Assembly: GCF_032854445.1 (NCBI RefSeq)
Contig: NC_088303.1
Span: forward strand, 16,995,501-17,059,500
From: Liolophura sinensis
Taxonomy: Eukaryota > Mollusca > Polyplacophora > Chitonida > Chitonidae
Direction of reading: 5' to 3'
Length of the DNA stretch: 64,000 nt
The position numbers and the translations under genes are program-made. Under the pieces are notes generated by a model. It was not told where the DNA came from. It worked only from the letters and a program-made list of their open reading frames with translations, and did no database searches. The number at the start of each line of letters is the position of its first letter. Within the stretch, counting starts at the first letter, position 1. This document shows, piece by piece, positions 12,796 through 63,339 of the stretch.

Positions 12796-14923
12796 CTAGT
12801 CAGTGATGTGCAATACCTTGGATCTGTTCATTATCAGACAAATTGTGACGAGACCTATGACAAAGCCGATGGACGGCCACACCATGGCCATGGTCACAGC
12901 CAACGCATCCGGTAGCTCCAGGATAACCTCGTGGGTGGCTGTTGGGTTCACGTAACAGTCAAAACTAGACGACCCGGTGTGTCTCTTTGCGAACCATTCG
13001 ACGGACACTTCGTTCGTCTTCGGAGAGGGGTCGCAAGGCACGAGACTACACTGTGTAAAGAGAAAATAGGACAGAATAATGTTTTAATGAAGCACAATGC
13101 GTTTCACTTGGCAAGGATTTGAGCTTATCGTACAGTATAACATGGCGAAAACACGAGGGAGTGTAACGTCAAATTGAGAGCTCAATAACCACAAGAATTA
13201 GTAGAAAAGCTTGACTTGATAGAGTTAATCCACAAACGATGCGTTGCATCATACTTTTTGTGTTGCTGATTCCAAGATGGACTCCCAGTTTGTTGAAGTA
13301 TGGAACAATGGACAAAAACTAACAATTAAGGCCAGGGAGCCTGTTAACATATACGTAGCTATCGCAAGGCTACGCCAAGCGCATTTACCATGGTTATATG
13401 TTATTCTGGAAGTCAAAATTTGTGACTGCCTCGTGAACCAGTCCCCTTTACAGAACTTTAGCAACTGTAAGAAACGGACTCCCTAAACTGAAGTACACAC
13501 GAAAAGATAAATCAACTTTCGGTGTAATGAAGCGATTAAGGTAGCAATCAGTTAATTGAGGTGCAAAAATTCAGAAATGAAATCCATTCCTCATAGACAC
13601 ATGTAGCTAACAACACTACAGAACAACCGGTACCATTAGATACCCATTCAATGGAGCAGCTGAAACCCTATTTATTAACGCCAAGAACCCCGAAAAGCAG
13701 TCGTATCAATCCTGTTGTCTACCGTTATCAACCATTACAAGGATTAAACAATTCCTGGCAGTAATAAAGACACTACTTATCGAATCAATTATACCTGCAT
13801 CACTAATCACACTTCGATGTTCAAGACGTGAGACACTCAAAGTTTAGACTATATAGGCCCTTGACAAATGCGATCGCGTGTTCGAATCTAAGCCTCTCTG
13901 GTTTGACAGTGGCTTAATCACACATTCCAAGCCAGGTACGTTTGTCAGTCAGGTTGTTTCCTTCAATGAAGTTCATCATCATCATTTAAAAAAAAATACC
14001 CCTCCTCCGCCCCCCCAAAATACTAATCCACTAAATGAATACATCAACATATTGCAGACTTTATAGCTTTTGTCAAGCGTAGTGAACGTAGGGAACTGCA
14101 GACAGCGTAATTGGTCGAAAAAAACTTACTGTCTTGTGGTCTTTGATTGGCATCTTGAAGCTGAGTCATAATATATTTGACAACAATTCAGTAGTTTTAT
14201 AGTTGTCCGTAACACACTTTGTTTGTTTCAAGATGGCAGCGTTTCGGCTTTGCACTCTAGGTACGTCTGAGATACATGCATTTATGTTTAACGATAACTT
14301 ATGAACAAGCATGGTGTACACAGTATGGGTACTGATTTAATTCATTCATTTTGTTTCCTTGTGTTGTTCCGGTCTTATTAAACACTGTTCACTGCTTCTT
14401 TTTGCCTGAATTCATCCTAATTTCTCATTAGCGTTATGTACTTTCTTAGTTCTTTGATAGTTTGTGTTGAACGTTCGTCTGGAAATCGATCTTGCGACCA
14501 CTGGCCGATTATGGTTGACGGCAAGTATACAGAAGTCAAGATTTTCCAACTGTGTTACTGTGAAATACAATTGGTTGTCAAACTACGCGCTTGTAGTTAC
14601 GATATACTCACTGGTCTGTCATCATACAAGGCGTCGTAGTCCTTGAAGAGAATACTTTGACGTTCAGGACCTCCCAAAGGGAGATACTGCACGGTGATTT
14701 CCTTACACGGGAATACCGACCAGCAGGTAGCGGTCTTCGTGCTGCAGGAGCACTCCAGGTACCCATGCTCCTGCACGGTGATCCCCGTACACTTCACTTG
14801 CTCAAAGTCCCGCGTGTACTCGTAGGGATGAACAATGACCACGCCCAGGGCAATCAGCAAGACAACACATAGCACCGTGAACCCCACCGCCAAGCCCAGG
14901 AATATTTTCGCCTTTGTTCCCAT
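12796..14923 (-). CDS. BK channel beta-subunit-like protein, copy 1
   Basis: Two exons: 14923-14612 (ATG, donor GTGAGT) and 13050-12796 (stop TAG), joined in phase 0 to give 188 residues, the size of vertebrate KCNMB1. Family members are two-span membrane proteins that sit beside the Slo1 pore subunit and tune its Ca2+ and voltage response. Visible features are TM1 at about residues 8-31 (LGLAVGFTVLCVVLLIALGV), then HPY. The extracellular loop has CSC, the VFPCKEITVQY block (YPC-x-x-x-V in KCNMB), and C-x4-C at the start of exon 2. FDCYVNP and VILE follow, then TM2 with MVWPSIGFVIGLVTICLIM. The TYDCFYNP/KYGNT region is more diverged than in the other copies. A TATATAAAG motif 10 bp before the ATG is too close to be a normal TATA box. 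Family call firm; pairing with a channel is inference. Confidence 0.85.
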
Positions 14924-16590
14924 GGTCGACTTTATATAAGATGTATACTCCTATAGTAACAAGGTTCATATAGGGTTCCTGAAAAAGCTAGAATCATTCC
15001 AGAAACGACATAATCCAAGTAACCATCATAATATAAATGAGGAACAATATGAGCAAGATGGGTATTGACTGAATACTGGTTATTATATAGTGAGGCTGTA
15101 TGAACGGAAGATAACCGCAAATGCACCGGCTGTCGTCACATTCCAATATAGGAACACCTCTGTTTCTTGTCACATCTGTTTCCCTCTGAACGTGTTCTAA
15201 ATACCCAACGACAACAGCACATCTAACTATTAACATTTCTTATACACACACTTCATATCTTCGCTTTGTTGGTGTATTTTATACTAGGTTGGGCCTTAGC
15301 AGTGCCAGTGAATTGTGGATTGGATGGCCTTATTTAGTTTTAATAATTACAACAGTGCAATGTGTTACTGATACCTATTGTATAGTGACGAACACTTGGC
15401 AATCCTTAGACCGATATAATAAGATGTTGATATTACCCTTAACCCGATGTTAACCCTGTCATGTTGAACAAAATTGCCTTGTTGGATACAAGAACAGTGG
15501 TCATCAAAGTGAAAATATTTTTGATACATTTTACAAATATCATCGTGGCTTGCCTGGTTTCAGTCTAATTCATCCCTGTGATAAAAAAAAACTGGAACAC
15601 AAATGAAAGATGTTTTATCAATTGCAGGAGGGAAGGGAGTTAAGGGAGAGGTATTTTTTGCTTAATCAATCGACCAAAACCTCGCTTCGGTACAGCGGCT
15701 CGGCCTTAGAAAAACAACGTTTTGATTCCAGGTCACCAACTGCAATTTTAAGTCTGGAGATTTGAGAGCTACCTGACGAAGGGCGATGGTTTCCACTAGT
15801 CACTTTGGTTCCCTCTACTAATTAAACTCAAATTAAATTAGGTTACCAAAAAAACCCCTAATTTCAGGCACCCCGACCACGACGCTTGGCTAACGTGTTT
15901 GCTTTTCTTTTATTTACTCTGAAGATCTATACTTGTCTTATTCTGGTTTTCCGATTTATGAATTAAAATGTAAAACCCGATAATCAGGCAAAAAAAAAAC
16001 CCAAAAAAACCCACGACATTGCGTAATAATTTTCGAGCGTTAGATTCGCGATTCTGTTGTACTTAATCGGCTCTGATGTAAATTAGGTCATTCTAATCGA
16101 CGTCAGTGCTTTCGCTTGGTTAATCTGGAATTGGCCATTCATTAACTTAAACTGTCACATGATCTATTAAACGACATGTTACCTGTGTGTGCTGACTGGG
16201 CCGTCAATACCGACTCCGCTCTCATGTGGATTTTTCACTGGCAACCTACTCAAAGATCTCTTCAGGTGGAGCAACAACCCCATCGATTCTTTTATTCCGT
16301 GTCGATCTCAGTGTAGAGTCGACTGGCACCACCCATCAACAGCTCTGTGAGGTAATTGTGACGGCAATACTTCTGTTCTGGGAGAGGCCTTACAAGAGTC
16401 AACATTTATAGCTATACTGCTCCCATCACGTATATTTACATGGTACAGAAACTGATAGTATATGTGGAAAAGTACGGTCTCAGCGGATATCACAGTGAGT
16501 ATCCTTTACTGGGTTAGATGTCCTAATAATCATTATAAATTTTTCATTATGAATTGCATCAAGTGATGTTCTGTTGCTAGCTAAAACATT
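14924..16590. other. No gene seen
   Basis: AT-rich intergenic sequence between the divergent BK-beta-like copies 1 and 2. Only short, unconvincing open frames are present, with poly(A) and poly(T) runs near 15580 and 15990. Promoters of both neighbours could lie in the 14924-18414 interval, but no clear motif is visible. Confidence 0.5.
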
Positions 16591-16599
16591 TCTCGAAAG

Positions 16600-16779
16600 G
16601 TAGTACGTGGGAAGATCTGCCAGCAACTTGCGGATCGTCGTGGGTTTCCTCCGGGCTCTGCCCGGTTTCCTCCCATCATAATGCTGGCGGCCGTCGTATA
16701 AGTGAAATATTTTTGAGTACAGCGTAAAATACCAATGAAATAAACCAAAAAAAAATAAATAAATAAGTAAATAAATAAA
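16600..16779 (+). mobile_element. 5'-truncated family A SINE
   Basis: Family A body without the tRNA-like head, ending in AAATAAATAAGTAAATAAATAA. Flanked by the direct repeat ctcgaaag (ends at 16599 and 16788), a target duplication. Confidence 0.85.
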
Positions 16780-18135: not shown

Positions 18136-18414
18136 CTCATCTCTCCAAAAAAAAAGGGTCATACAGAATTCGTTATTAAAAAAAAATGTGCCTAACAGCA
18201 AAACGGGTGAGTTTGTTTTTAGTAAGGAATAATTCAATCTACCAATAACAGTAATATTAACGCAAGAGAGAAATAGGCGTCATACCATTTACAATGGAAC
18301 GATGTACTTTACTGCATGCTATTCCTGTGATTCGTTTTCAGATAGCCTTCCTGTCGTTCAACGAATCAACCGAACCTTAATCTCTGCGGAACGCAGGAGG
18401 TTCTCCCCGTCGAC

Positions 18415-19524
18415 ATGGCACGCCATAGTAAAGGTCGCATGACCCCAAAGAAGCTGGCCTCTTTTGTGTTGCTAATATTAATGATCATCTGTGCCATTGT
18501 TATGATTTACTACGGGTTGATCGTGGTCAAGCCTTACACCTTCACTGCAGATTGGATCTTGTCTCAGTGTAGTCCCGTGACGGTCTCATTCAACGGTAGA
18601 CTGGACTGTATTTGCACCATGGGTACTGACAGTGGTTCCGGAACCTGCGTGTCGGAGTACCCGTGCGCAGAGATCACAGTTCGCTATCGCACTGACGGCA
18701 GTCAGATAGACCAAAAGGCCAAGATGCTCAAGTCTTTCTCGGCTAATCACAGGAATGTGCAGGTATACAAATATTAGGCCTATTTTCATAACTTCAAAAA
18801 CGATTGCTCAGCCACCATAATTAGAGCAGTAAATCAGGTTACATAGATTAACAGGGGATATCTTAGTACTTCCATACGGGTCTCTATTTCCGCTTGCCTT
18901 CCAGTATTGTTTAGCTTACATGTATTAGACTTTCATGCCGCATTCTAATTTATATGCCGGTAAGGTACGTTGTTGTAATGTTGGACTTAAAACTCGCCCG
19001 CATTGTGCTTTGTGTGGTATTCACGAGATTAACGTTTCTGTCATGCCATTTTCTTTTGAACACAATTTGTTTATTTTATGGCTGAAACACTTGCTCACGA
19101 TGCTCGTATATACCACATCGCTTCATGTTCAAAATGAATATGACAATGGTATAGGGTATAATGGTTAGCTTACGTATTCTCTCATCATGCATGTATTTAG
19201 CGCACACCTTACGTATTCTTATGTGGTTGTTTTGTATTTTTCCAGTGTGTTCTCAAGGCCTGTGAAGAAGATCCTCTCCAGAATAACAAAACGATCTATG
19301 AATTCGTGCAGAAGTACGGCAACACGGCCTCCAAGGCCTCCTATCCTTGCTTCTACAATCCCGACAACCTCAACGAAGTCATCCTCGAGAAAACGCCACG
19401 AAGTGACGTCATCGTGGTCATGCTTTGGCCGTCGCTAGGGTTCCTCGTGTGTCTTGTTGCCATGGTGATAATACAGTGTGCATTGACGGATCAACAAGTC
19501 GGAGACCAGACTCTCGCCAGTTAG
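18415..19524 (+). CDS. BK channel beta-subunit-like protein, copy 2
   Basis: Exons 18415-18762 (donor gtatac) and 19246-19524 (stop TAG), phase-0 intron, 208 residues. TM1 is at about residues 17-38 (LASFVLLILMIICAIVMIYY), followed by GLIVVKPY. The loop has cysteines in CSPV, CIC and C-x6-C within SEYPCAEITVRY, the block equivalent to the KCNMB YPC motif. Exon 2 opens with CVLKAC (the C-x4-C pair that precedes the last loop in KCNMB) and continues KYGNT, YPCFYNP and EVILEKT. TM2 is VVMLWPSLGFLVCLVAMVII. One N-glycosylation sequon (NKT) lies in exon 2. The upstream fragment at 17543 is a copy of its exon 2 and shows local duplication. The ATG at 18415 was chosen because it gives a short basic N-terminus before TM1, as in the family. 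Confidence 0.88.
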
Positions 19525-21513: not shown

Positions 21514-22192
21514 GAAATAGTCTTAAGTAAGGCGTAAAACACCAACCAAATAAATAAATAAATCCATATCTCTGGTGGATACGGAACCACGGAAGTGACA
21601 AAATTTTAAAATTCTTAGTTTTTTATCCATCGGATAACAGAGAATAAAAAAAATACTATGCTTTCTTAGTAGCCTATATGGTGAGGAAAAAACCGGGCTT
21701 AACATGGGACTACTGATATTGAATACTCATACTATAGATCAAAGGACACAGTTAACACATGTAGAATCTTCCAAACCGAGAACTTACGCAGTCTATGCTC
21801 TCACGGTGACATTTGTCCACATCTGGTCAACATTAAATGCACTTGTGGGAAATTATCTAACACCTGTAAATCGGACTTGTGTGAAGAGGATACGTACATG
21901 TACATGTAAAGCTTATCTGAAATGACCCGCTTTAATACTATATTTACATTTGGCTTGATTACTAGAGGCTATAGGCCTACATTGGTTGTCAACACTAACC
22001 ACGTTATCGATATGTAGAGAATGACGGTGTGTAGAGTTTCATATCCGGGGCAATGTTGTAAACCTGAATCTATATACAGTGATCTTAATTCATTAATCTT
22101 TGAAGAGCAGTGATCATGTGCACTTTACCTGCATTTTCGAAAGGCAGTGCCCGTGTCCTATAGTTTGCAAGTGACAGGTATGGTACAGTGAG

Positions 22193-24046
22193 ATGGCTAA
22201 AGCTCCTACAATGAAGCGGTTTTGCTCTCGCATTGTGTTGGGATTTCTGTGTTTCATCGGATTCGCCTTACTCGTCGTTTTCGGCGTGGTCTTCGCGAGG
22301 CCCTATATCCACACCTCTCACTTTACCCTAGCCGAGTGCCGTGCCGTGAACGTGATTGACCACGGTAAGAAGACATGTCTTTGTACACGTACGACTGAGA
22401 ATGAACACGTCAAAAGACAATGTAGATCGGAATATCCATGTAGAGAGATCACCGTGACTTTCAAGGCTAAGGACAATGCGCCATATCACAAGAGCAGGCT
22501 GTTTTCACACTATAACTCTGAGTTTCGCACAGCACTGGTGAGTATTACATGTTATTAGGAAGGTGGATATTCCGGTTTATGTCGATATTTCTCGAAAATA
22601 CGATTCCATAAATGTGAATAAATATGTCATGGTAATCGTCAAAAAGCACTAATATCATGCAGGCGTTTTCCATGACATGCACGTGAGCCTAGTTGGGATG
22701 CATTTCGAAATGTGCGTGCAAACGAGTTTCCATATACCTTTAAGTCCAGCGTTGAGTCACACCTACGCTTGGCGTCCAGCATGAAGGGGATAGTGCAACG
22801 ACTGGTTGAACCGTATCAGTATAATGGCTCGGACGGAGCGGCTTACTTGCCTTCGGTAAGTCGTCTCAGTGAAGCAGCACTAGATAAAAGAGCCGTGGAA
22901 ATCCGTTTTGCATCAAGGAGGTACATTACATACACCCTAAGGATTCCTTCGTCGTCATATGACTGAAAAATTGTTGAGCACGACACTGAACCCCAATAAC
23001 TCTCTCACTCCATATATCTTACGGATAACATCACGAATAAAATCTGTCCATATATATCTTTTGGTGTAACGGAAAAGCTGTTTATCTAATACGAATATCG
23101 AATAGCACTGATACTTTACCTGGAAGGGTAGAAAAAGTTCTATTGGTAAGATCGCCACCTCTTCGAGGCTATATATAGCTGACAGATAGTTAAACCCTAC
23201 AGTGATACTTTTGTGACACTTAGCACAAATTAGTGCATTGCTTTTTCGTGACACTGTTTAGCTGACCTTCAGTTTTACAGTTCTGTGTATGACTGTGTAT
23301 GCGGATTACCACAATAATATTTGTTCAATATTAGCAATGAGCACAAAAAAGTCCTTCAAAATTTCCAACACCAGATAGCCAGCGCCTGCGCATTCACTTC
23401 ACATACACGGCGGACTTCCGTGGCCAATGCCCAGTGCTATAAAATGACCCAGAAGCTTCTCGCTGTGAGTTCAAATCCAGCTCACGCTGACTTCCTACCA
23501 CCATAATACTGGTCGACGTTGTATAAAGAAGTAGACCATATTCTTGAGCTCGGTGTAGCTGTGAATATCTCTGCCTTTGCTTACACCCCGGCAATGTAAG
23601 AGATATTCACAGCTAAGCTCGGTGTAAAACAACAATCAAATAAATAAACAAATTATATCAACCACCTGTAGTTGCGATATTTGTCGTTGATATAGGCCTA
23701 GTGCTTTTGGTATTCATGTAAAGAGTTTCTGTTTCAGTGTTCAGCATTCACTTGTTACGAAAGCCGGGTTCGAAACCAGGAAACAATAGATGATTTTGTC
23801 CGGAAGTACGGCAATACGCATGACACTTCGAGCACCTATGACTGCTATTACAACCCCAGTGATCTGGATCAGATTGTTCTCGCCATTCCCGCCCCTCTCA
23901 CTGTGATTCTCACCATGACCATACCCGGTGCACTCGTACTTATTACTGGTACTATTCTCTGCCTTCTCCATTTTTGTCCTAGAGTCAAGAGAAGAGACAC
24001 TGCTGTGGGAGTTGACGTACATGAGCTTGGAAATTTGACTAAATGA
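22193..24046 (+). CDS. BK channel beta-subunit-like protein, copy 3
   Basis: Exons 22193-22537 (donor GTGAGT) and 23738-24046 (stop TGA), phase-0 intron, 217 residues. TM1 is at about residues 14-36 (IVLGFLCFIGFALLVVFGVV), followed by ARPY and, eleven residues on, the first loop cysteine. The loop continues CLC, C and SEYPCREITVTF. Exon 2 opens CSAFTC, then RKYGNT, TYDCYYNP and DQIVL. TM2 is LTVILTMTIPGALVLITGTI with a Pro-Gly in place of the usual Trp-Pro-Ser, the main departure from the other copies. A 33-residue basic and acidic cytoplasmic tail follows. Its intron holds a family B and a decayed family A SINE plus a small foldback insertion. Neighbouring copy 2 has the same orientation. 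Confidence 0.87.
22742..23005 (+). mobile_element. Family B SINE fragment in the intron of copy 3
   Basis: Matches the family B body from 'gagtcacacctacgcttggc' through 'cttcgtcgtcatatgactga' to a degenerate tail (ccccaataactctctcactc). The tRNA-like head and a short internal piece are missing. Confidence 0.82.
23400..23645 (+). mobile_element. Decayed family A SINE carrying a foldback insertion
   Basis: tRNA-like head (ggcggacttccgtggccaat; B box gagttcaaatccagc), an internally deleted body and a tail ending AATCAAATAAATAAAC. The element is interrupted near its 3' end by a 58-bp foldback insertion. Confidence 0.8.
23558..23615. mobile_element. 58-bp foldback insertion with 11-bp target duplication
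   Basis: The arms agctgtgaatatctct (23557-23572) and agagatattcacagct (23599-23614) are perfect complements, with a smaller inner pair cttaca/tgtaag. The SINE sequence agctcggtgta is present on both sides (23547-23557 and 23616-23626), so it was duplicated at insertion. Confidence 0.8.
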
Positions 24047-29612: not shown

Positions 29613-31062
29613 TCAGATGGCGTAGTTATTCCTTGATGTACGAAACATGCCGAAATAACCGTTGTCCTTTGACCGACAGTGACAAACGAGCAGAACGATG
29701 GCGAAGATGACTAAAACCAGCGATGGCCAGAGCATGGCCATTATAACAGTTCTCACAGACGTCTTCTCTATGATCACCTCCCCTGGGTTCTTTGAGTTGT
29801 AGAAACAATCGTAGGTGGCGTTCCGGTCAGTGTTGCCGTACATACTGACAAATCTGCTGACTCGTGCCTTGTTCTTGTTCAGATACTGATCACATGTCAT
29901 GATAGCACACTGGAATGACAATTGGAAGATTTCAGATATGCTGATATGACCTACTTGACATCGCACATGCAATACACAATACAACAGGCCTACAGTGTAA
30001 CCCCGAAATACGATGGTAATGCATGAAGTTTACGGTTGAATTTGAACAGGCGGGAAGAACTCTTTGGAAAATCAGCACATCTTGTCATGTACGGTCTATA
30101 ATAGTTGTCAGATTTCCTGCATGAAAAGCTAACGATTTGAACACGTGACCCAAAAATAACATAGAAGGAGACAACACTTCTGTTCAACCCGGGAAGAACC
30201 CTTCTGTTCTATTTATAATTTGCACCCCAGCGCGGCGCAGAGACACAGGAGAGTCTCACCAATGCGGTCGCTGTGAGTTCAAGTCCAGCTCATGCTGGCT
30301 TCCTCTCAGGCCGTACCTGGGAAGCTCTCCAGCAAACTGCGGATGGTCGTGGGTTTCCCTCAGCCTCTGCCCGGTTCCCTCACACCATAATGCTCACGCC
30401 GTCGTGTTACGCCATAATGCTAACGCCGCCGTATAAGTAAAATATTCGTGAGTACGGCGTAAAACAACAATCAAATAAATAAATAAATAAATAAATAAAT
30501 AAATCCATTTATGATTTCCCCATGCAGGTCCCACCATTATAATAATGATTCGTTTGCAACACGAATATGCAAAAGTAAATTCATTCCGTGGATACAGAGC
30601 ATTTACTTCTTACATACATTTTACTAAAAGTGACTTCAACAATTCACACTCCCTCTTTGTTTGTGTAGTGCTTGACATCAGGAATTAGAGATACATGTTA
30701 CAGTACACAAAGCGCCAGATTTGTAACACTTGATTACAGTTTACCTTTTCCGTAATGTAATCGCTCGTGTAGTATAGGAATAACCGGCTCTCGCGAGTTT
30801 CCTTGGAATGGTTCGGGTTGATTTCTACTGTAATCTCCACGCAGGGAAACACCGAATGGCAGTCGTCATCATCGTCGTCGCTGCTACATGTACACACCAT
30901 GTAACCATGATCTGTCACGTTAACCGCTCTACACTTAGCCGGAGAGTAAGCAGAGGTTATCACGTACGGTCTGATAAAGATGATGCCAAAGGCGATTAGC
31001 AGAGCACAGCAGATGAGCATCAGAAGCAAAATCAAAACGAGGGAGATTCTCGAGCATGTCAT
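29613..31062 (-). CDS. BK channel beta-subunit-like protein, copy 4
   Basis: Exons 31062-30745 (donor gtaaac) and 29909-29613 (stop TGA), phase-0 intron, 204 residues. TM1 is at about residues 5-27 (ISLVLILLLMLICCALLIAF), followed by GIIFIRPY. The loop has CRAVNVTDHG, CTC, an Asp run, and VFPCVEITVEI. Exon 2 opens CAIMTC, then MYGNT, TYDCFYNS and EVIIEKT. TM2 is VIMAMLWPSLVLVIFAIVLL, and a 25-residue tail follows. Three N-glycosylation sequons (NVT, NHS, NAT) fall in the predicted extracellular loop. It is closest to the pseudogene at 36166-38260, sharing GI(I/V)F(I/V)RPYV and NVTDHG. The intron contains a family A SINE (30231-30504). Assignment to the KCNMB family is firm; the channel partner is inferred. 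Confidence 0.88.
30231..30504 (+). mobile_element. Family A SINE in the intron of copy 4
   Basis: Nearly full-length copy with tRNA-like head remnant (gcgcagagacacaggaga; gagttcaagtccagc) and an AAAT tail. A short internal duplication repeats ccataatgct-acgccg. Confidence 0.83.
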
Positions 31063-33150
31063 TATGCCGTTAGACGTTCATCTGCAATAAACATACAGAT
31101 TAACTATACAGTAGGCCTACCTATGCATAGATACACCGGGAGATATTTGTTAGTTTTGTTGGGTGGTATATGTATATTTGTATATACCGGCTGTACACTG
31201 AATTAATTAACAGTCGGGTAACTTCCATACAGCACTGTCGTTTCTGACGTCAGCATTGGTTCCCCATATGTTATAAAGCCTGTATGGCAGTGTAATCTCC
31301 CTTGCATAGCTATGATGTCTTTTTAGGCCATAGTCGATAAGACGGTATGTGCCGAAAAAGACCTGTCCGCACGCTAGTTACTGGTAACGTAATATAGTAA
31401 CTGCTAAGCAGTCTAGTTGGTCTTAATTACCGATAGAGAGCTAGAAACGAAACAGTCCAGCAGGGTCCAGTCGCTAGAATAGCTATACCGTGAATTTAAA
31501 TCAAGAGTAAGGATTGCCAAGAGCATTAACCTTTCAGTGGGCCTATAAGCGCCTGTATAAGATTAACGTCCGGCACACCTGATCATTTGTCCATGCTTTG
31601 CGCCAAAAGAATGAGCCTTCAGTGTGGTCTTCAGTGTGGTATACCGGCATTTCTCTTTACGCTATATACCATACCTATCATAGAGATCATTGATTCTTTA
31701 CATTCTCTGTCACAGTACACTTCATGGTGCTCTGTGGTGGGCTAGGCTATATGCAGGGTCGCTGTCCTCGGGCTATACCGCGCCCTATTAAGTCTTTGTA
31801 CTCACTGTTGACAAATGCTGTTGAGAACTCTTTGAACTGTCGGGTAACAATGGCCATCACATGATTTTAGTGAGATCAACTCTCCATATTGAACGGTAAT
31901 GTTACAGACAACGCTCAGCAAGCTTGCGTCTGTAACCGCATTCGGCACTTGTGAACGCGCCGGCGTTGATGGTGACGAAAACAAGTCTCTGCCGTTCTCG
32001 GGTATAGGCCTACATTAACGTGTAAATGATTGACAGTTAAAGTGATTAAGTGATTGATCACCAGGACATTTTCCCCCCTTTTACGGAAAAAAACTCAGAA
32101 GGAAGAACTGAAAGTTGGAGAGATCCACTTTAAAATCGTCCCAAATGCTCATGTAATGCTCCACTCGAACTATTAAAGGACTGTATCACACCTTCCAATT
32201 AACACAATAATTATTCTCACGGCTTGCACATGAATGTTTATTCCCCACCCCCTCTTCCCCCGCCCTCTCTCACACACACAAGACCCTAACCCTTGTTGAT
32301 AAATAGTACAGACGGGTAAATTTCTTACCGAACGTGCCACTGTAAGAGCCGCATCAGGCTGCTCGTGTGCCGGGGAATTTAGTGGTAGTTACAGCATGAC
32401 GTTTGGATGAGAAAGCGCTGTTAACATTCCGGTTTTGAGGCAGACCCGCTACAAGCCATATGCTACAAGCACACATCACCGTCTTCACATGACCACAATA
32501 ATGTGGAAAGCAAGGATACAAATCAAACTTTGGTTCTACTGGGTATACTCGATGTCCAATCATCACAAGTGTTTACACGAGCTCAGTATAGGCCTACGTA
32601 CACGCTGTACTTACCCATCCATGACTCATTCGATACATGTGAGAGCTTTTGCAGAGCCGATATTCTCCTATAGGCCATAGCTACTCTTCTCACAGCCATG
32701 TGCATGTACACGTATATTGCGTGCTTGTGACCCCATTGCGACTGCAAACTTGGCGTATGTTGGCGTGAATCTTTTCGTTTACGCGCGCGATGTGGAGAGA
32801 GCGGTGCATGAGTACGGAATGTGTCAAGGCTCCCGATGACGTATTTGTTTGTTTATTTTACCAGAGTTGAACGTCCGGTTTGACATTATTGCGGTCAATC
32901 TGAGACAATAATCGCCTAGTTGCAGCCCAGTCCCAATGTCGCATGATTTATGGGCACAATGAAGCTTCACTGGGGAATGTTATACGCCGGGGACAGCTCG
33001 CATTCCCAGTGTACAGCAGCATTATTTATTTGATTGGATTGACTAGAGTGAATTGTCGTATACCTTATGTCACTTTATCTAGACCATAAACGAGGAATTT
33101 CTAGGTTGTCTCGCTTTTCGTTGTTTGTGTTGACAATACTGTCAAGGGTT
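31063..33150. other. No gene seen
   Basis: Intergenic sequence upstream of BK-beta-like copy 4, so its promoter should lie here. No convincing coding exon, SINE or array is visible. Short open frames have no recognisable content. Confidence 0.45.
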
Positions 33151-38429: not shown

Positions 38430-40785
38430 ATACAGAGGTATCAGTCATTCACATGTTCCTTCAATGTGGACAGAAGGTACGTCAGTCGTGCACATGTTCC
38501 TTCCATGTGGACAGAAGGTACGTCAGTCATGCATATGCTCCTTCCATGTGGACAGAAGGTACGTCAGTCATGCACATGTTCCTTCCATGTGGATTGAAGG
38601 TACGTCAGTCATGCACATGTTCCTTCCATGTGAACAGAAGGTACGTCAGTCATGCACATGTTCCTTCCATGTGAACAGAAGGTACGTCAGTCATGCACAT
38701 GTTCCTTCCATGTGGATTGAAGGTACGTCAGTCACACACGTTCCTTCCATGTGGACTGAAGGTACGTCAGTCATGCACATGTCCCTTCCATATGGATTGA
38801 AGGTACGTCAGTCATGCATATGCTCCTTCCATGTGGACTGAAGCTACGTCAGTCATGCACATGTCCCTTCCATGTGGACTGAAGGTACGTCATTTACGCA
38901 CATGTTCCTTCCATGTGGACAGAAGGTACGTCAGTCATGCACATGTTCCTTCTATGTGGACTGAAGGTACGTCAGTCATGCACATGTTCCTTCTATGTGG
39001 ACTGAAGGTACGTCAGTCATGCACATGTTCCTTCCATGTGAACAGAAGCTACGTCCGTCGTGCACATGTTCCTTCCATGTGAACAGAAGGTACGTCAGTC
39101 ATGCACATGTTCCTTCCATGTGAATAGAAGGTACGTCAGTCATGCATATGCTCCTTCCATGTGGACTGAAGCTACGTCAGTCATGCACATGTTCTTTCCA
39201 AGTGAACAGAAGGTACGTCATTTACGCACATGTTCCTTCCATGTGGACAGAAGGTACGTCAGTCATGCACATGTTCCTTCCATGTGGACTGAAGGTACGT
39301 CAGTCATGCACATGTTCCTTCCATGTGAACAGAAGCTACGTCCGTCGTGCACATGTTCCTTCCATGTGAACAGAAGGTACGTCAGTCATGCACATGTTCC
39401 TTCCATGTGAACAGAAGGTTCGTCAGTCATGCACATGTTCCTTCTATGTGGACTGAAGATACGCCCGTGATGCACATGTCCCTTCCATGTGGACAGATGG
39501 TACGTCAGTCATGCACACGTTCCTTCCATGTGGGCAGAAGGTACGTCAGTTATGCACATGTTCCTTCCATGTGGACAGAAGGTACGTCAGTTATGCACAT
39601 GTTCCTTCCATGTGGACTGAAGGTACGTCAGTCATGCACATGTTCCTTTCATGTGAACAGAAGGTACGTCAGTCATGCACATGTTCCTTCCATGTGAACA
39701 GAGGGTACGTCAGTCATGCACATGTTCCTTCCATGTGAACAGAAGGTACGTCAGTCATGCACATGTTCCTTCCATGTGAACAGAAGGTACGTCAGTCATG
39801 CACATGTTCCTTCCATGTGGACAGAAGGTACGTCAGTTACGCAAGTTCCTTCTATGTGGAATAAAGCTACGTCAGTCAGGCACATGTCCCTTCCATGTGG
39901 ACTGAAGGTACGTCATTTACTCACATGTTCCTTCCATGTGGATTGAAGGTACGTCAGTCAAGCACATGTTCCTTCCATGTGAACAGAAGGTACGTCAGTC
40001 ATGCAAATGTTCCTTCCATGTGAACCGAAGGTACGTCAGTCATGCACATGTTCCTTCCATGTGGACTGAAGGTACGTCAGTCACACACGTTCCTTCCGTG
40101 TGGATTGAAGGTACGTCAGTCATGCACATGTCCCATCCATATGGATTGAAGGTACGTCAGTCATGCATATGCTCCTTCCATGTGGACTGAAGGTACGTCA
40201 GTCATGCACATGTCTCTTCCATGTGGACTCAAGGTACGTCATTTACGAACATGTTCCTTCCATGTGGACAGAAGGTACGTCAGTCATGCACATGTTCCTT
40301 CCATGTGAACAGAAGGTACGTCAGTCATGCACATGTTCCTTCCATATGAACAGAAGGTACGTCAGTCGTGCACATGTTCCTTCCATGTGGACTGAAGGTA
40401 CGTCAGTCATGCACATGTCCCTTCCATATGGATTGAAGGTACGTCAGTCATGCACATGCTCTTTCCATGTGGACTGAAGCTACGTCAGTCATGCACATGT
40501 CTCTTCCATGTGGACTGAAGGTACGTCATTTACGCACATGGTCCTTCCATGTGGACCGAAGGTACGTCAGTTATGCACATGTTCCTTCCATGTGGATTAA
40601 AGGTTCGTCAGTTATGCACATATTCCTTCCATGTGGATTGAAGGTACGTTAGTTATGCACATGTCCCTTCCATGTGGATTGAAGGTACGTCAGTCATGCA
40701 CATGTTCCTTCCATGTGGATTGAAGGTTCGTCAGTCATGCACATATTCCTTCCATATGGACTGAAGGTACGTCGGTCATGGTGGT
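38430..40785 (+). repeat. 41-bp minisatellite, about 57 copies
   Basis: The unit runs tgcacatgttccttccatgt, then ggacagaaggtacgtcagtc and a. Variants alternate between ggaca, ggact, ggatt and gaaca after ccatgt. A seven-unit (287-bp) higher-order repeat is visible: the variant gctacgtccgtcgtgcac occurs at about 39048 and 39335. Nearly every unit has TACGTCA, a CRE-like half site. The array lies just upstream of BK-beta-like pseudogene copy 5. All long open frames here are repeat artefacts. Confidence 0.95.
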
Positions 40786-49576: not shown

Positions 49577-52500
49577 ATGTGGATTCTTACCAGCTGTATT
49601 GCGTTAGTCAGCGTAGGTCTCTCCCTGCAGGCTGGTAAGTTTATTGCTGACCATAAACAATGTCACATGCGGTTAAATAACGATATAAAGGTAGAAAGCT
49701 ACATGTTTAACGAAAACTAAACAGCAGCGTTCATTAAAATATTGAAATACATCGAATGTTAAATTCCATTAATATCACCGAATGTAAAATTCAGTTGTTA
49801 TCTTGGGGATTTTTAAAGGACCAACGGCAAAGGGTTAATATCAATAAGGAAATTGGTTTTCGTTAACATAATACATGCAGGTTAAAACATATACGTATCA
49901 GGTTGTATAGGTCTAAACATTCAGTCCATCTAAAGTTTAGTGTTTGAAATTATATTTTTATTTTTTATTTTTATTATTTATTTTTACGACATGGTTTCAT
50001 CCACAGCATACTGTTTCATACGATTTATGTAATATATTATGATAGTAAAATTTCAAGATTTACATTTTTTTAAAATGAATTTTTAAATTTAAAAAAAATG
50101 AGTATGAAAGATAGCATATCAGTATTTTCTTTCATGATTTTTCTTGCTGAAGAAAGAAAGACTACATTATACATCTACAGAATTTTCACAAATGCATTGA
50201 CTCGAGGGATATATTTTTCACCGGGGCCGGAATTATGCAAGCAGGATGTGGCAGTCCGAATTGTTATATGCGGGGAAGGTGATGATGTAAAGCACATAAC
50301 ACATGCGCTTCAAAATACATGTAAATATGATAAATGAATTGGGCCGTTATGTTTCAATAGATATATTTCAATAGAATTCATTTTTGCGAATCGGTGAGAT
50401 GTGAGAATATCGCAATAAGTCGCGAACCAAACTGCGAACGTCAAACCATCAATATCTATATTTATCTGAAGATTTATTAAGGATTAACGCTGTAATGAAA
50501 AATATTTCACTAATACGACGGCGCTCAGGTTAAAGATTAAAGGAAAATGTACAGAGCAAAAATCCACCGCGCATGCCAAAGTACTTGACAAACCCTTCTC
50601 ACTTAAAACCGCAACAGAAGATTGCTACGAGTAAAGTGTGTAATTATGTATGATTTAAACTGAAATTTGGAAGGAAAAAACACCTCTAAAATTAACCTCG
50701 TTGATCTCTGATGTATACGAAAATGATCACATCTGGTATTGTCTATCATGCTACAAGAGTACTCTAGGCGGCCATTAATGTTAACCTTTCTTGTCAAAAA
50801 TATTAAAGTTGCGTAAAGCCATAATCATTTATTCATTAATTATGTTTTAAATTATCTCAAGAAAAAAAAATATTCTTGTTTTGCTATCAAATACATCAGT
50901 CATGACATAATGAATAGCTGCGTGAAATAATGTACACAACATTGATATGAATGAACAGATAAATAATGAACGGAGGTAATTTTGATTAATGTAATGTGTT
51001 AATGTGATAGTGAGAGTTTTGTGGACTGAGTGAACCGGACAAAGTCCATTCACAATCAATCCAATCACTTTTATCATTCTGTGCTGACACATGTTTTGTG
51101 TTGGGCAGAATGTGACGTAACGAACAACCAAGGTTTCTGTGGCGCAGCCTGCATTGAGGGTTTCGCCGAGGCGGAGTCGGACACGTGTTCAGAGGGCATC
51201 TGTTGCTATGTAGACAGTAAGTATTGACAGTAAGACAAGTGTTCGAAGAGCTTCTGTTATGTACACAGTAAGTATTGAAAGTCTGACACACACGTTCGGA
51301 GAGCGGTTGTGATTATGAAGACATTAAGTATTGGGAGTCGGACACGAGTGTGGGGGGCTTTTTGTTGTTATGTGGACGGTAAGTACTGAGAGTCGGACGC
51401 GAGTGTGGAGGGCTTCTGTTGTTATATAGACAGTAAGTATTGAGAGTCGGACACGAGTGTGGAGGGCTTTTGTTGTTATGTGGACTGTAAATACCGAGAG
51501 TCGGACACATAATCGGAGCGCGTCCGTTGTTATGTACACATTAAGTATTGAGAAATCTTCTTTGTTATGAAATTCTTTTGAGGTGTATTCCCATATTTTA
51601 TTAGCTTCCCATAATTATAGAGCTTTGCATCACTCACTTAGAAATTGTGGATTCTGTCGATGTGTTTTTGAAACCGCTACATGACACCAAAATTGCCAAA
51701 AGCCTTAACCCATTATACGTCATCCCTAACTATACGCCGGTGCGTTCCTGGAAATACTCATGCGTAACAGCGCCATTTTTATTTTGTTATCTGGTTTATT
51801 TAATATGTGCATTCTTTGAGGAGCTGCTTAAATGCTACCTATGTATGTAATGTAAGCATTATTGCCGAAATGGAGAAGTTATTGTATTCCAGAATCATAT
51901 GGGTTTCTTTAAATCGATATATACCCGACACCAAAATACGAGACCAAAAGTCAAACCCTGAAGAATAGGATCTATTTGTTTAGTCTAACGCCTGTGGCAC
52001 TTCAAAATATAAGTGCTGTTTACTGCGGCCCTGAAGCGGAATTCTTGTTTAAAGAAGAGATACTATTCATGGAAGAAATTTATAACGTGTACATGCGTGA
52101 ATCGGTTGGCATGTGTAGGCAGTCACATTCAGACGGTTATGGTATATTTCTCTCGAACTGAACATACTAAACCTTAAGTTTCACTCGCCCAGTCGGTATA
52201 TTGTGCGGTAGCAATGTTTGCTAGATTTACGATGTTTTACAGTCATTGCATTGTACTTTAATTACTGCTCGTCATTTACTTCCGTAGCCTGTCCATTTGA
52301 TGAAGGGGCGTTTTGCGGTCCGTCCTGTGATGTTACGCCTGGATTCGTTGATGCAGGGGAACCGTGTGTAGGCGGCGTCTGCTGTATTCCAGGTAAGATC
52401 TGGTTCCTAGGAATATGCTCGCCATGATTGTGAGAAAGGAGGCAGAAACCAAGGAGGCGGAGGGCAGAGGAAACAAAAGCTCAATGTGATACTTGGAAAC

Positions 52501-55500
52501 ATGCTCCCCATAGGACAACAACCTCAAACATTTATCTTGTTCAGTGGTTTACACTTAGTTCGTGTTGACATTGAAACAAAATTTTGTTTTTATGAAGAAA
52601 TAGCAACTAGTTTAGTTTCCACTGCAACAACATGGTTATTCCAAGCGTCCATTGCTACTAGCATGCTACAAGGGTTTCATGTGACAAATTACATCATTAC
52701 ACTTGCCCTCCACGCTTTTGCCTTATCAAATTAAAATCGGTTTCGTCTTTCCTGCTACTGTATTAAAGCTCGGAACAGTGTTAACACACTTGTTTAAATC
52801 TGTCGTATATAGGGGCTGTTGGTGGTCAGGTGGTTGAGTTATCCATCGATATTCAGCTGCCACCACGGCATGTTCGGAGTCGTCAGCGGTTAAGCTATGC
52901 TTACATAATGTTCGTCAGAGACCGCATGTCTCCATTCATTATGGCATATACCTTGAGATCACTCAAAGTGAAAGTCTATGTGTCTTTTACTTGGTGAGTG
53001 GTTGATGGTTTACTCCAGGCTCTACGGTTTCTTTCACCCATAAAACTGCCGTCGCATACCTTTGGGAAAAATTCAGGCCATTTATTATTATTATGAAAAA
53101 CCTCGGCTTTTGTTTTTCAGAGAACTGCCCGAACGGCGTGTGTGTTCCAAAGGAGAAAGAGGACTTACTGGGACCTGCGTTTAGCGAGGATACAGCCGCG
53201 ACATGTGCCGCAGGGGAGATCTGCCTGGTCTATGGTAATAATACACACAATAATACACTCATAATAACACACTCATAATAATACACACATAATAATACAC
53301 ACATAATAATACATACATAATAATACACTCATAATAATACACTCAGAATAATACATACATAATAATACACTCACTATTATACATACATGATCACACATTA
53401 TAATAATGTAGTCTATTACTGTAGTCTATTTCTTTTAGCCAGTCGCCAATATTCAGCTCTGTGTAAAATGAGTCTTGCTCGCCACAAAATTGCCAACGGG
53501 CAGTGTAATGTACTGTATCATAGTAACATGTGTAACGGATTTTATCACAGTAACATGTGTAACGGACGATATCACAGTAACATGGGTAACGTTTTGTATC
53601 AGAGTAACGTGTGTAACGTATTGTATCACAGTAACATGTGTAATCGACTGTATTACAGTAACATGTGTAATCGACTGTATTACAGTAACATGTGTAACAG
53701 ACTGTATCACAGTAACATGTGTAACGAACTGCATCACAGTAACATGTGTAAAGGACTGTATCACAGTAACATGTGTAGCGGACTATATCACAGTAACATG
53801 TGTATTGGATTGTTTCACAGTAAAATATGTAACGGACTGTATCATAGTAACATGTGTAACGTATTGTATCACAGTAACATGTGTAACCGACTGTATTACA
53901 GTAACTTGTGTAATGAACTGTATCACAGTAACAGGTGTAAAGTATTGTATGACAGTAACATGTGTAGCGGACTATATCACAGTAACATGTGTAATGGACT
54001 GTATCACAGTAACACGTGTAAAGTATTGTATCACAGTAACGTGTCTAACGTATTGTATGAGAGTAACGTGTGTAACAATAACATGTTTACCATGTTGTAT
54101 CAGAGTAGCTGTAATGGAATATGTATTTCAGATGTCTGTGATGAATAAGCGTTGTATTTTTAAAGGCCCATGATGCAATATGCTTATTGTTTTCAGGGGT
54201 CTGTGACGGAATGTTTTATGTTTTCAGAGGTCTTTGATGGAATGTGTTTTGTGTTTTCAGAGGTCCTGTAATGGTATGTGTTTTGTGTTTTCAGAGGCCT
54301 TTGATGGAATGTTATTTGTGTTTTCAAGATGTCTGTGATGGATTGTGTTTTGTGTTTTCAGAGGCCTTTGATGGAATGTTTATTTGTGTTTTCAGATGTC
54401 TGTGATGGATTGTGTTTTGTGTTTTCAGAGGTCTGTAATGGTATGTGTTTTGTGTTTCCGGAGGTCTGTGATGGATTGTGTTTTTGTGTTTTCAGAGGTC
54501 TGTAATGGTATGTGTTTTGTGTTTTCAGAGGTCTGTGATGGATTGGTGTTTTGTGTTTTCAGAGTCTGTAATGGTATGTGTTTTGTGTTTTCAGAGGTCT
54601 TTGATGGAATGTGTTTTGTGTTTTCAGAGGTCTGTAATGGTATGTGTTTTCAGAGGTCTGTGATGGATTGTGTTTTTGTGTTTTCAGAGGTCTGTGATGG
54701 TATGTGTTTTGTGTTTTCAGAGGTCTGTGATGGAATTTCAGAGGTCCGTGATGGAACATGTTTTGCATTTTCATACATCTGTGATGCAAAATGTTTTGTT
54801 TTTTCAGAGGTCTGTGATGGAATATGTGTACCTGAAGAAAAAGCGCCGCTTGTCCCTGGGTTTACTGAGGATCCTAGTGGAGTCTGCATACAAGGGGATA
54901 TCTGCATCGTGCCTGGTACAGTTTCCAGCTGTCTGTCAGCAGTTGTAAGCCCTGTTCACACGATGCGATTTGTCGTACATTTACGAGGAATTCAACAAAA
55001 TCAAAGCGAATGCACTGTCAATGGACTTTGAAACCATGTCAAATAGCCTTAGTAGCGGCTAGTCTCAGTTCATACGAGAAATCGCACCATGTGCACGTGG
55101 CTCTACACTTAAGCTGAGCGACAAGATGTCTCACTATAACAGAGCTGTGGCAGATTTATTTAGATAAGATCCCGTTAGTCATCTTCACCCCCAGCTCATG
55201 GTTTCGTTTGCCGTCATCACGCTTCCTATTTATTTTCGTCTTCGTCTTCTTCGACATCAGATTCATTCAGATATTTAGGGTTTGACATCTCCTCCTTCAT
55301 CAGTATACAATCGTTCTTCAAACTTCACCTCCGTAGTTCCCTGCTCGCGGTGTGTTTTTCAAACTTTATCTCCGTAGCACCCTGCTCACGGTGTTGATCA
55401 CCATCGCTCCTCCCTTTAGCATTTTCGTAATTCCATTTTCGAAGAAACATCCCTTTGCCACGTGCCTAATACTTTCTGCCTTCACCCTAATGTCTGCGCT

Positions 55501-57102
55501 TATCTCTTTATCCCCCCGGTGCCAGCGGGACATTACATTAGCACCACGTTTGGCTAGGCTCACCTGCCTTCCCTGTCCAACACTCACTCCCTTACCTCAC
55601 TCCACCCCCTTCTACTGCTGGTTCATTAAAGCCAGTTGTTTCTCTCCAGCTCTCACCTATTTCTCCTCCACAGTTAGTCTACGCCAAGCTTTTCGGCCAT
55701 TGTATTGTAAAAGAATTGAGTCGAATTTGAGTTTCAGATTAGTGTCACCTTTTGGCCTTACTCAAAGGTCCGAAAGCGAGCTGTTCTCCGACTGTAAAAA
55801 CACTGGTTTGTTCTTCACGTGGGATTCAACAACTCAAAGCGTGGAAAACAACAAACATAGATGCAGTCTAACATCAGTCTAACATTTGGCGACTGGGGAA
55901 ACAACCAAGATAGACGCACACTGACATCATTCTAACATTTCGTGATTGCGGTATAACAGAAAAGACGCACCATGACATCATTCCAATGTTTTATGATGGA
56001 GGTAACAGTAAATACAGGCGCACTCTGATAATATTCTAAACTTTCGGGATGGAAGGCACATTCTAACGTGTCTCGAATGAGACCACAGCAAAGAAGTCGC
56101 ATAGTGAGATATGAGGTAACAGTATAGATACAGTTTGAAATAATGTTGACGCGACTGGAGTATACCTCAGGGCCTTGGTTGTCCAACACGCTTCATCTGT
56201 GTCAGGAGACCACGGGCGTCGAAAACGATGCTTATGCTTGGTGGTGCACTATTTAAATACAAAATGATACTATTATAAGTAATAAATATGATTGTATACT
56301 GAGTCATGGTTCTCCGTTAATGCTTAATGCTCAATAGAAAAGGCCTCTGATGTTCAGCCGATATTGAAGCGTCCAATCAGCCACAATTAGATAACGATGC
56401 ATGGGCTAAATTAAAGATTGTTTCGTATGTCATATTGGCAGACTTTAAAACTCTGAATTAATTGGACAATTTGAGTGCCTTTTTTGTGTGTAACAGAGTG
56501 AAGAAAGCTATCTTGTTACTGGTTGTACTTATGTGTTTCTTTCTTTTTCTCTCAGTGGTTCCAACCACAGCAGGCCCCATAGAAACTACAGAGGCGGCTG
56601 TAGAAACTACAGAGGCGGCTGTAGAAACTACAGAGGCGGCTATAGAAACTACAGAGGCGGCTGTAGAAACTACAGAGGCGGTTGTAGAAACTACAGAGGC
56701 GGCTGTAGAAACGACACTGGCGGCAGATGAACCTACGACATTGGCGGCAGATGAACCTACGACATTGGCGGCAGAAGAACCTACAACGGCCGCGGTGACG
56801 ACTCCCGATAGTAAATAGTTTCCTTCAAGCTTCTGTAGAATTAAATATTATAAAAAAAATAATAGTTTTGAATACGCTGTCGAACAGCATACATGCCAGC
56901 GTAATAGATGTGATGAAGCAATAATAGTAGTGTCTCTACATTTTAATTCCCGTTAATTTATGTTTATTTTAAAGCTCGATGTGAGGGAGCCATCGATGGG
57001 CTGTGTATGCCACAGAATCTGGTTCCAGTAGTCCCATCATGCGCGTCTGTAGATGAGGCGGCCACGGACTGCAAACCGGGTGAAAGCTGTTGTGTGGGCT
57101 GA
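49577..57102 (+). CDS. Secreted cysteine-rich modular protein with a mucin-like segment
   Basis: Seven exons: 49577-49634, 51109-51216, 52288-52392, 53121-53234, 54808-54915, 56556-56810 and 56975-57102 (stop TGA). The protein has 291 residues and every intron is phase 1. Exon 1 is a signal peptide (MWILTSCIALVSVGLSLQA). Exons 2 and 3 each encode one module of pattern C-x7/8-C-x3-C-x11/12-C-x4-CC (for example GFCGAAC … EGICC). Exons 4 and 5 encode a shorter form beginning CPNGVCVP or CDGICVP and ending in a single Cys. Exon 6 encodes repeats of ETTEAAV and then AADEPTT, a likely O-glycosylated spacer. Exon 7 returns to a CC-ending module (C-x4-ESCC). I do not recognise the family; the six-Cys pattern ending in CC loosely recalls CLIP or small disulfide modules. 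An extracellular or mucus role is inference. An AATAAA follows at 57215. Confidence 0.8.
51165..51560 (+). repeat. 54-bp tandem repeat copying exon 2 end plus donor
   Basis: Seven units; the first is the real end of exon 2 (from gagtcggacacgtgttcaga to the donor at 51217). Later units keep gagtcggacacgagtgtgga, ggcttctgttgttatgt and, in three of six intronic copies (ending near 51260, 51378 and 51432), an intact GTAAGT. Another copy keeps GT as GTAAAT and two have TTAAGT. A TGA just inside the intron prevents simple read-through. Confidence 0.9.
52812..53095 (+). mobile_element. Possible SINE of the third type, in an intron
   Basis: tRNA-like opening (ggtggtcaggtggttgagtt) and a 3' part with 'tctttcacccataaaactgc' and cgtcgcatacctttggg, similar to 43540 and 2190. 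It ends about 25 bp before exon 4. Confidence 0.4.
53235..53395 (+). repeat. Short tandem repeat beginning at the exon 4 donor
   Basis: Units of the type ataatacacacat / ataatacactcat start directly at the GTAATAATAC donor of exon 4 and run for about 160 bp. Confidence 0.88.
53500..54110 (+). repeat. 27-bp minisatellite in intron 4
   Basis: About 22 units of 'tgtatcacagtaacatgtgt' plus aacggac. Because 27 is a multiple of three, two forward frames (up to 253 codons) and part of the reverse strand stay open, with monotonous YHSNMCNGL or CITVTCVTD text. These are not treated as genes. Confidence 0.93.
54195..54830 (+). repeat. ~33-bp minisatellite copying the exon 5 acceptor
   Basis: About 19 units of gtgttttgtgttttcag followed by aggtctgtgatggaat. 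The last unit is the genuine 3' splice site and first codons of exon 5 (AG at 54806-54807, then AGGTCTGTGATGGAATATGT). Each unit therefore carries a polypyrimidine-CAG and codes for E-V-C-D-G-(M/I)-C. The open frame at 54384-55031 is made of these units running into exon 5. Confidence 0.92.
55845..56045 (+). repeat. Degenerate ~54-bp tandem repeat in intron 5
   Basis: Four diverged units marked by gatagacgcacactgacatc / attctaacattt. The preceding open frame at 55352-55882 has no recognisable content. Confidence 0.6.
56575..56780 (+). repeat. In-frame 21-bp coding repeat (ETTEAAV)
   Basis: Seven units of gaaactacagaggcggctgt plus a, then three units of a related 21-bp repeat coding AADEPTT, all inside exon 6 of the cysteine-rich gene. 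They keep the frame and make the Thr/Glu-rich segment. Confidence 0.93.
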
Positions 57103-61655: not shown

Positions 61656-61800
61656 CGTCATATATCATATGTGTAAAAACGGCAATATACATATATAATT
61701 TAACATAAATATGTGATTTACAAACAGTACATCTCAACATGTCTTTTAGCGGCTAAGCCCATGGTCCTGTGTTAAAGGGCGCCGGATAATAGTTTACACG

Positions 61801-63170
61801 TTAAGAGTTTTGGGCGATCCAGTCCAGGTACTCGCTGACATCTGTGTAGACGCCAGGTTTTCCCGGGTCAGCGCAGCCATCTCCCCAGGACACCACGCCG
61901 GCCAGCACGTAGTTCCCAGCCGAGGTCGGGCAGGCCAAGGGGCCACCGGAATCCCCCTGGAATGGATCAGGTAGTCAACTCAGAGGCGGAAAGTAAGAAG
62001 CAGTCAGGTGTGACAGACAGGAACTATTTAGTTGTAGGAGAGTAGGACTAACCTGACGAGTAAGATGCACGTACAGTTTAAGCTTTCGGTGTCAGTTGCC
62101 CATATGTACAACGATCTAAAGCCTAAAATTGTCAAACCAGTCCTATGTGTTTTGGTTTTAGCGAAACCTCTCCATAGTTTAATATGTACGCAAGTGATTT
62201 ATAAGTCTTACTAAACGGCATCACTTATTTCAATGGTGTTTTACCCAGCACTCATGAATATTTATAAGACTTCGGCCAGCATCATGGTAAAACTTTCCAC
62301 ACAAGGTGATCGAGCTCAGAGAACTACATCGTGACGCGGAGGCGAAGTTTACCTGGCATGCGTCTTTCCCGCCTTGTGTCAGACCTGCGCAGAGGTTTAG
62401 GTCTGTGATGTAGGTGTTGGTGAAAACTGTCTGGCATTCCTGCTGACTGACAATGGGCAGGTCAACACTCTGTAGAGTGTAAGAGATGGATCCTCCAGCT
62501 AGGTGTCAGATCAAGCAAAAAGTATGAACAAAGGATACATGCGCTGTTTCGATTTATTTATTTGATTCGTGTTTTACGCCGTACTCAAGAATATTTTACT
62601 TCTACGACGATCTCTACTAGGCCTAATTCTTTAGTTTGCCCGATTAGAAGATATATTATCATACAATACATCAAATGTTCGAATAAATCATTAATACAAA
62701 TCTACCCACATCGGAGATATGTAAGAAACAAATATGTTTGAACAGGAAATATCGAGGATAGAGAATAAAATGGAAGCTGCTCGAATTCGTGACATTAAAG
62801 GAGACGGGTGAATGACCCTATATCTTGCTACTTGTATTGCTATTGTGTGGGTATTGGATGAATTATCATTCATAAACGATTTGCCATGGGAAAAACTTCA
62901 AAGGAAGTCGCTAAGCATGTGAATGTCATGCAGTACACAATAAATGTCATTCAGATAAGGGAATGGTTCTAGTGTCTGCAAAATATTTCAGGAATTTCCG
63001 TTCTATGACGATACGTTGACTAGTTAAATACTCACAGGAAATGGTACCCCAGCCGCTGACTTCGCAGTTATTTCTGGTATAATCCTGATTTGCCTCAGGA
63101 AGACAGATGGGCGCGACACATTCGTTGAACTCAATTGGGCTTTTCAGCTTAATAATGGCAATGTCGTTTT
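61801..63170 (-). CDS. Trypsin-like serine protease, S1 family (C-terminal part)
   Basis: A peptidase of the chymotrypsin fold, probably secreted and trypsin-like. Three exons are visible on the minus strand: 63170-63036, 62498-62353 and 61956-61801 (stop TAA), all with GT-AG borders and consistent phases, giving 145 residues. The catalytic Asp lies in NDIAIIKL at the start of the first visible exon, and the catalytic Ser in GDSGGPLAC at the start of the last. The specificity-pocket Asp is present six residues before the Ser (KDACQ|GDSGGP), and VSWGDGC and GKPGVYTDV give the open Gly-lined pocket of trypsins. C-x4-C in CVAPIC and CEVSGWGT fit the family. The catalytic His exon, propeptide and signal peptide must lie beyond position 64000. 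The substrate is unknown. Confidence 0.92.
62550..62612 (-). mobile_element. Family A SINE 3' fragment in a protease intron
   Basis: Only the tail end is present: tttatttatttgattcgtgt, ttttacgccgtactcaagaa and tacgacga. Confidence 0.78.
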
Positions 63171-63339
63171 CTGTGTAAAAAAATCAACAACAGTGATCAT
63201 GAAATCCACACGTTGGAGCAACACTAGTCTGTTTCTGATCCAAGGATTGGTTACGACCCGTGTGTACCAATCGGATCAAAGATGGGGTATAATTTATATT
63301 TCTTTGGTGGGCCTCCACATTTTTTACAGGTTTCTTTCT

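Follow-up and report, generated by a model that had tools for sequence, protein, structure and literature searches.

The closest known kind of array to those described here is the "mirage" minisatellite of lancelets, a form that is already known but has rarely been described. As far as the available text of the two lancelet reports goes, mirages occur in Adh3, BflGb6, BflGb9, TnC and PGBD5 and were reported without disturbance of splicing (PMC3087553, PMC3902484). In PGBD5, according to the same partial text, repeats are present at both the 5' and the 3' splice sites of one gene (PMC3902484). For human duplicated genes, the accessible part of a further report describes internal tandem repeats at exon-intron boundaries, some of which gave new introns (PMC2812944). 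Like lancelet mirages as these excerpts present them, the arrays of the chiton gene analyzed here are minisatellite-like copies of a 5' or 3' intron-exon boundary, with AG or GT present in many units.

From splice signals and homology judged by eye, we infer a gene of 7 exons on the + strand of the window (the whole 64-kb stretch of DNA that was analyzed), with the ATG at 49577, the stop at 57102 and an open product of 291 aa. The introns of this predicted gene are in phase 1 throughout, exons 4 and 5 both being phase 1-1. Exon 1 (49577-49634) would provide the start codon and a signal-peptide-like sequence, likewise recognized by eye. It is followed by four consecutive cysteine-rich repeats in predicted exons 2 (51109-51216, 108 nt), 3 (52288-52392, 105 nt), 4 (53121-53234, 114 nt) and 5 (54808-54915, 108 nt), by a Thr-rich exon 6 (56556-56810) with coding 21-bp and 24-bp repeats found by TRF, and by a final cysteine-rich repeat with the stop codon in exon 7 (56975-57102). 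Exons 4 and 5 share 48% identity over 33 aa. The gene product is probably a small cysteine-rich protein that is secreted. The coding minisatellites within predicted exon 6, at 56580-56784, encode ETTEAAV-like (21 bp) and TTLAADEP-like (24 bp) repeats. With a limit of E 1, Pfam contained no family for the predicted protein, the single listed match in PDB was not significant (E 0.34), Rfam gave no match at gathering scores, and the protein encoded by exons 2-5 had no match in viral_contigs.

Intron 4 of the predicted gene ends in 22 tandem units, mostly of 33-34 bp. TRF reported a period of 33 at 54126-54736 (18.7 copies, score 762) and at 54736-54827 (2.8 copies), as well as a 67-bp dimer period at 54188-54734. 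Scanning with the 20-mer TTTTCAGAGGTCTGTGATGG and allowing up to 4 substitutions identified 19 sites in the 64-kb window, all on the + strand within 54125-54820, and none on the - strand. Three copies added by hand, two with an indel (54254 and 54556) and a degenerate one (54158), bring these 19 matches to the count of 22. An array of this kind is far beyond chance, its functional meaning being a question to be judged separately. The earlier note had described about 19 units at 54195-54830; the array itself stands, but the 20-mer matches and the copies added by hand amount to 22 units, the first starting at 54125. By TRF, 20-mer scan and unit alignment, the 21 upstream units (54125-54800, +) each consist of a polypyrimidine stretch, an AG and a copy of the exon 5 start. 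The CAG at the splice position is kept in 17 of the 21, bearing out the earlier description of the units as copies of an acceptor and exon start. The last unit (54801-54827, +) holds the CAG of the predicted genuine acceptor (54805-54807) together with the beginning of exon 5. Its designation as the genuine splice site holds for the predicted junction, which places the end of the AG at 54807 and the first base of exon 5 at 54808.

The 22 rows of the alignment comprise 19 different unit sequences, and the identical units are non-adjacent (u05, u10 and u12; u04 and u15). Together with the 67-bp dimer period, this fits ordinary array turnover. In a unit tree, u02, u20, u21 and the genuine u22 group with weak support (65/86) and there is no firm fork. 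The diversity of the units also bears on the idea that a shorter array was falsely expanded during assembly, misassembly being known for lancelet mirages from the available text of the reports (PMC3087553 / PMC3902484). However, false copying of a single unit fails to account for units as varied as those of the intron 4 array, and we consider an assembly artefact extremely unlikely.

We compared the predicted genuine acceptors with the upstream copies. The distance to the previous AG was 19-33 nt in 18 of 18 scored upstream acceptors versus 44-64 nt in all six predicted genuine acceptors, the 18 decoys being copies of one another and no independent cases. The scored set comprised 17 CAG and one CAAG; an AAAG, a GGAG and each second AG within CAGAG were excluded. 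Within the window, AG-AG spacings of at least 44 nt account for 7.3% of 3,624. At the exon 5 acceptor the AG-free zone covers 54744-54805 (+), the previous AG ending at 54743, 64 nt from the genuine AG. The zone is long because the penultimate unit has lost both its CAG and the next AG. This unit reads TTTTCATACATC, compared to TTTTCAGAGGTC in most units. A G-to-T change converts the usual TTTTCAG to TTTTCAT (54768-54774, +), thereby removing the nearest decoy CAG and creating a yUnAy-like TTCAT at -34, the genuine site's only yUnAy in reach; a second change abolishes the following AG. A yUnAy in reach was found for 6 of 6 predicted genuine acceptors versus 6 of 18 upstream acceptors, although the motif is loose and a longer AG-free zone gives more room for a chance match. 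Genuine and upstream sites are not distinguished by their pyrimidine content, the value for the genuine site (10/16) being inside the upstream range (7-12/16). The longest pyrimidine run is 7 at the genuine exon 5 site versus 4-5 upstream, while two other genuine sites have 4. Work on acceptor choice indicates, in its accessible portion, a preference for the first AG 3' of the branch point (PMC1431707, PMC7317903). Some decoys have an AG-free zone of 31-33 nt, which can hold a branch point, so that these acceptors might still be used.

We think it likely that the intron 4 array is a mirage-type minisatellite produced by tandem duplication of the junction, with splicing mostly or wholly at the last unit (54807), and a neutral mirage with such a privileged last site is the reading we favor. 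From what is seen directly in the DNA (this array and a second one in intron 2, the AG spacing, the reading frames and the exon homology), we infer the following course of events. The sequence across the boundary of intron 4 and exon 5, with the polypyrimidine tract, the AG and the first exon 5 bases, would have been duplicated in tandem, through slippage or unequal exchange. The copies would have spread on the intron side, thus leaving the original exon intact at the 3' edge. An equivalent process would have acted at a junction of the opposite type, the exon 2 donor. The branch-like TTCAT of the last site would have arisen out of the inactivated acceptor in the penultimate unit. The last unit would be chosen for its 64-nt zone and TTCAT, as opposed to the decoys, whose AG-free zones are short and most of which have no branch-like motif. 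Splicing probably ignores both splice-site arrays. Several features of mirages are recognizable at this locus: units span the exon-intron boundary at the predicted exon 5 acceptor and exon 2 donor, the copies are intronic while the exons are whole (with a spliced prediction open for 291 aa), and many but not all signals are kept, including GTAAGT or GTAAAT in 4 of 6 intronic donor copies in addition to the CAGs of intron 4.

The direction of these events can be judged from the exons related to exon 5. Sequences homologous to its start (EVCDGICVP) are present in exon 4 (ENCPNGVCVP) and exon 7 (IDGLCMP), with DGxCxP common to exons 5 and 7. The repeated part corresponds to the first bases of exon 5, which encode part of the domain common to exons 4 and 7. 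TRF detected no tandem array at the acceptors of exons 4 and 7, and the exon 4 acceptor junction matches the exon 5 junction at 16 of 20 bases. Because the homologous exons lack arrays at their acceptors, the order of junction first and array later appears simplest and is supported, in agreement with the growth of the array from a working junction suggested by the earlier note. Conversely, an intronic minisatellite may have existed first, its edge unit then becoming the acceptor and start of exon 5. This order would accommodate the two further arrays directly upstream in intron 4, a 14-bp array (53236-53407, +; TRF) whose first base is the T of the GT donor of intron 4 and which is without exon sequence, and a 27-bp array of 21.3 copies (53503-54076, +; TRF). 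It would also accommodate the identity of the opening 13 bases of exon 5 with the commonest unit sequence of the array. However, what the units encode belongs to a domain that is also present in exons 4 and 7, and their core recurs at the exon 4 junction, where there is no array; we regard the reverse order as quite unlikely.

The 27-bp array was considered as a third mirage and rejected, as it had no clear match to the 4 exon ends tested (P 0.54, 0.05, 0.70 and 0.75, the best value, 0.05, being that for the exon 5 start). Two + frames of this array stay open, over 233 and 260 codons.

We next consider whether upstream acceptors could be used. Use of any of eight of the 35 upstream AGs in the array region, 7 of which are CAG, would lengthen exon 5 by 66 to 312 nt and leave it open and in frame. 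The 17 upstream CAGs divide into 7 that maintain an open frame and 10 that are out of frame or stopped. With the 7 in-frame CAGs, exon 5 would start at 54496, 54529, 54595, 54628, 54688, 54721 or 54742. Shuffled unit orders gave a mean of 1.04 open in-frame CAGs (P 0.006 for 7). Block shuffles of 2, 3, 4 and 5 units resulted in P values of 0.007, 0.012, 0.034 and 0.041, respectively, and shuffles with fixed edges in 0.035. Seven in-frame CAGs were reached by 2 of 21 rotations, including the real order, and by 0 of 21 with the order reversed. This frame excess could hint at use of upstream acceptors. Coding constraint on the added sequence was not evident as a codon-position bias among units, the three positions being equally variable (0.864, 0.859 and 0.857), while the frame excess over shuffles points the contrary way. 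The YYYCAG columns of the alignment are more uniform (0.921) than columns 22-34 (0.789), the uniformity of the remaining unit columns being affected by gap placement. We count the uniformity of YYYCAG against the neutral-mirage explanation, though the columns derived from the exon come close to this value (0.901). Among the 7 in-frame CAGs, only the acceptor at 54627 (+180 nt) has a yUnAy in reach (TTGAT at -23).

These data bear on a functional ladder, in which upstream acceptors would be used at a certain rate or in a particular tissue, adding E-V-C-[D/N]-G-x-C peptides ahead of exon 5 and thereby generating isoforms. The open in-frame CAGs and AGs in excess of shuffles (P 0.006 to 0.041 depending on the null), unit pairs with compensating lengths that preserve the frame (34+26, 34+32) and the motif at 54627 speak for such use. 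They are opposed by the equal variability of codon positions, the 10 CAGs that are out of frame or stopped, the 6 in-frame CAGs without yUnAy in reach and the short AG-free zones at upstream acceptors, and we consider the functional ladder unlikely. An extended version holds that the array is a self-tuned working 3' ladder. Here, the penultimate decoy would have become the branch site, the exon-proximal half would be in frame, and rare upstream use would produce length isoforms of the cysteine-rich protein (54627 being the best candidate, with +60 codons), with the intron 2 donor array truncating only (stop after five codons). We give this version little credence. Neither the frame excess nor the step from dead acceptor to branch motif is by itself evidence of function, but both merit RNA testing.

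The array might also act as a nursery of microexons or new introns, with units becoming tiny phase-1 exons via the donor-like GGTATGT. This motif is present in 6 array copies, 12 nt past the acceptor, and occurs 10 times on the + strand of the window. However, exons of 12 nt would have to be joined across introns of ~21 nt between neighboring units, and such exons and introns are hard to splice. Although a model of this type was proposed for lancelet mirages in the available text of one report (PMC3087553), we consider it very improbable here.

Returning to the neutral mirage, we found a second, mirror-image array in the same gene that had been missed by the earlier note, as had the fact that minisatellites of this type are already described. 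Intron 2 begins with 7 copies of a 54-bp unit forming a 5' splice-site array (51174-51553, +; TRF, 7.0 copies, 74% matches). The first copy consists of the last 43 nt of exon 2 and 11 nt of intron 2 (GTAAGTATTGA). GTAAGT is present in 3 of the 6 intronic donor copies and GTAAAT in one, while in the other 2 the GT is lost (TTAAGT). Any of the 4 downstream donors, with which exon 2 would end at 51267, 51378, 51432 or 51486 instead of 51216, would add S-K-Y and a stop directly past the authentic junction if used. Since each of them brings a stop, the donor ladder could only truncate the product.

The window is generally rich in arrays. We obtained 25 merged intervals covering 12,159 bases (19.0%), compiled by hand from 51 TRF rows with the short-unit arrays at 16738, 24541, 24989 and 30473 omitted. 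Very long minisatellites are located at 4328-6616 (32 bp x 71) and 38441-40780 (41 bp x 57). A special attraction of arrays to splice junctions was rejected: 2 of 12 junctions are inside arrays (P 0.61 for at least 2 by random placement) and 3 of 12 are within 2 bp of an array (P 0.41 for at least 3), with P values of 0.85 and 0.65, respectively, when placement was restricted to the gene. As junctions are hit no more than at random, no mechanism aimed at splice sites is needed. When 13 array unit sequences were compared with the window after masking of its arrays, the matches were weak or spread locally, and the 33-bp array unit had a chance-level 12-mer at 62399. A serine-protease-like peptide, which we take to belong to the trypsin family, was met as a chance match at about 61800-63200 (-). 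Elsewhere in the window, 4 ORFs match the Pfam family CaKB (calcium-activated potassium channel beta subunit), 3 of them above the curated cut-off (14597-14950, -; 18346-18777, +; 22175-22558, +; 30685-31077, -). They represent a local family on both strands.

Judging from titles and abstract openings, we found no mirages outside lancelets in the literature searched, which is weak evidence of absence; the accessible part of a report on earthworm metallothionein describes intronic minisatellites but no clear mirage (PMC12783039). The present array would extend mirages beyond lancelets if its host is no chordate. Zhuo et al. 2007 reportedly described introns arising from tandem arrays and splice signals repeated within tandem arrays; in contrast, intron 4 is bordered by an array and not evidently made from it. 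In tandem (NAGNAG) acceptors, several AGs compete for one exon, whereas here the spacing is ~33 nt instead of 3 nt and each AG has its own pyrimidine stretch. Decoys near-identical to a genuine acceptor provide a natural test of spliceosome discrimination. As AG spacing and the branch-like motif are what chiefly sets the last site apart, the rule of the first AG after the branch point makes a sharp prediction.

Like the human boundary repeats, which have ~30-bp units on average and are able to change splicing, the chiton arrays are minisatellites at exon-intron boundaries; unlike the present arrays, the human repeats were selected for paralogue copy-number variation and RNA support, as far as the accessible text goes (PMC2812944). 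In the excerpts available on lancelets, BflGb6 has 3-6 units of 150-160 bp, compared to 22 units, mostly of 33-34 bp, in another gene here, and splicing was checked by RT-PCR, while that of the chiton gene is predicted from sequence. Two arrays on opposite kinds of junction in one gene offer material for watching intron growth, and in this respect the chiton gene resembles lancelet PGBD5 as described in the available text, with 5' and 3' splice-site arrays in the same gene (PMC3902484).
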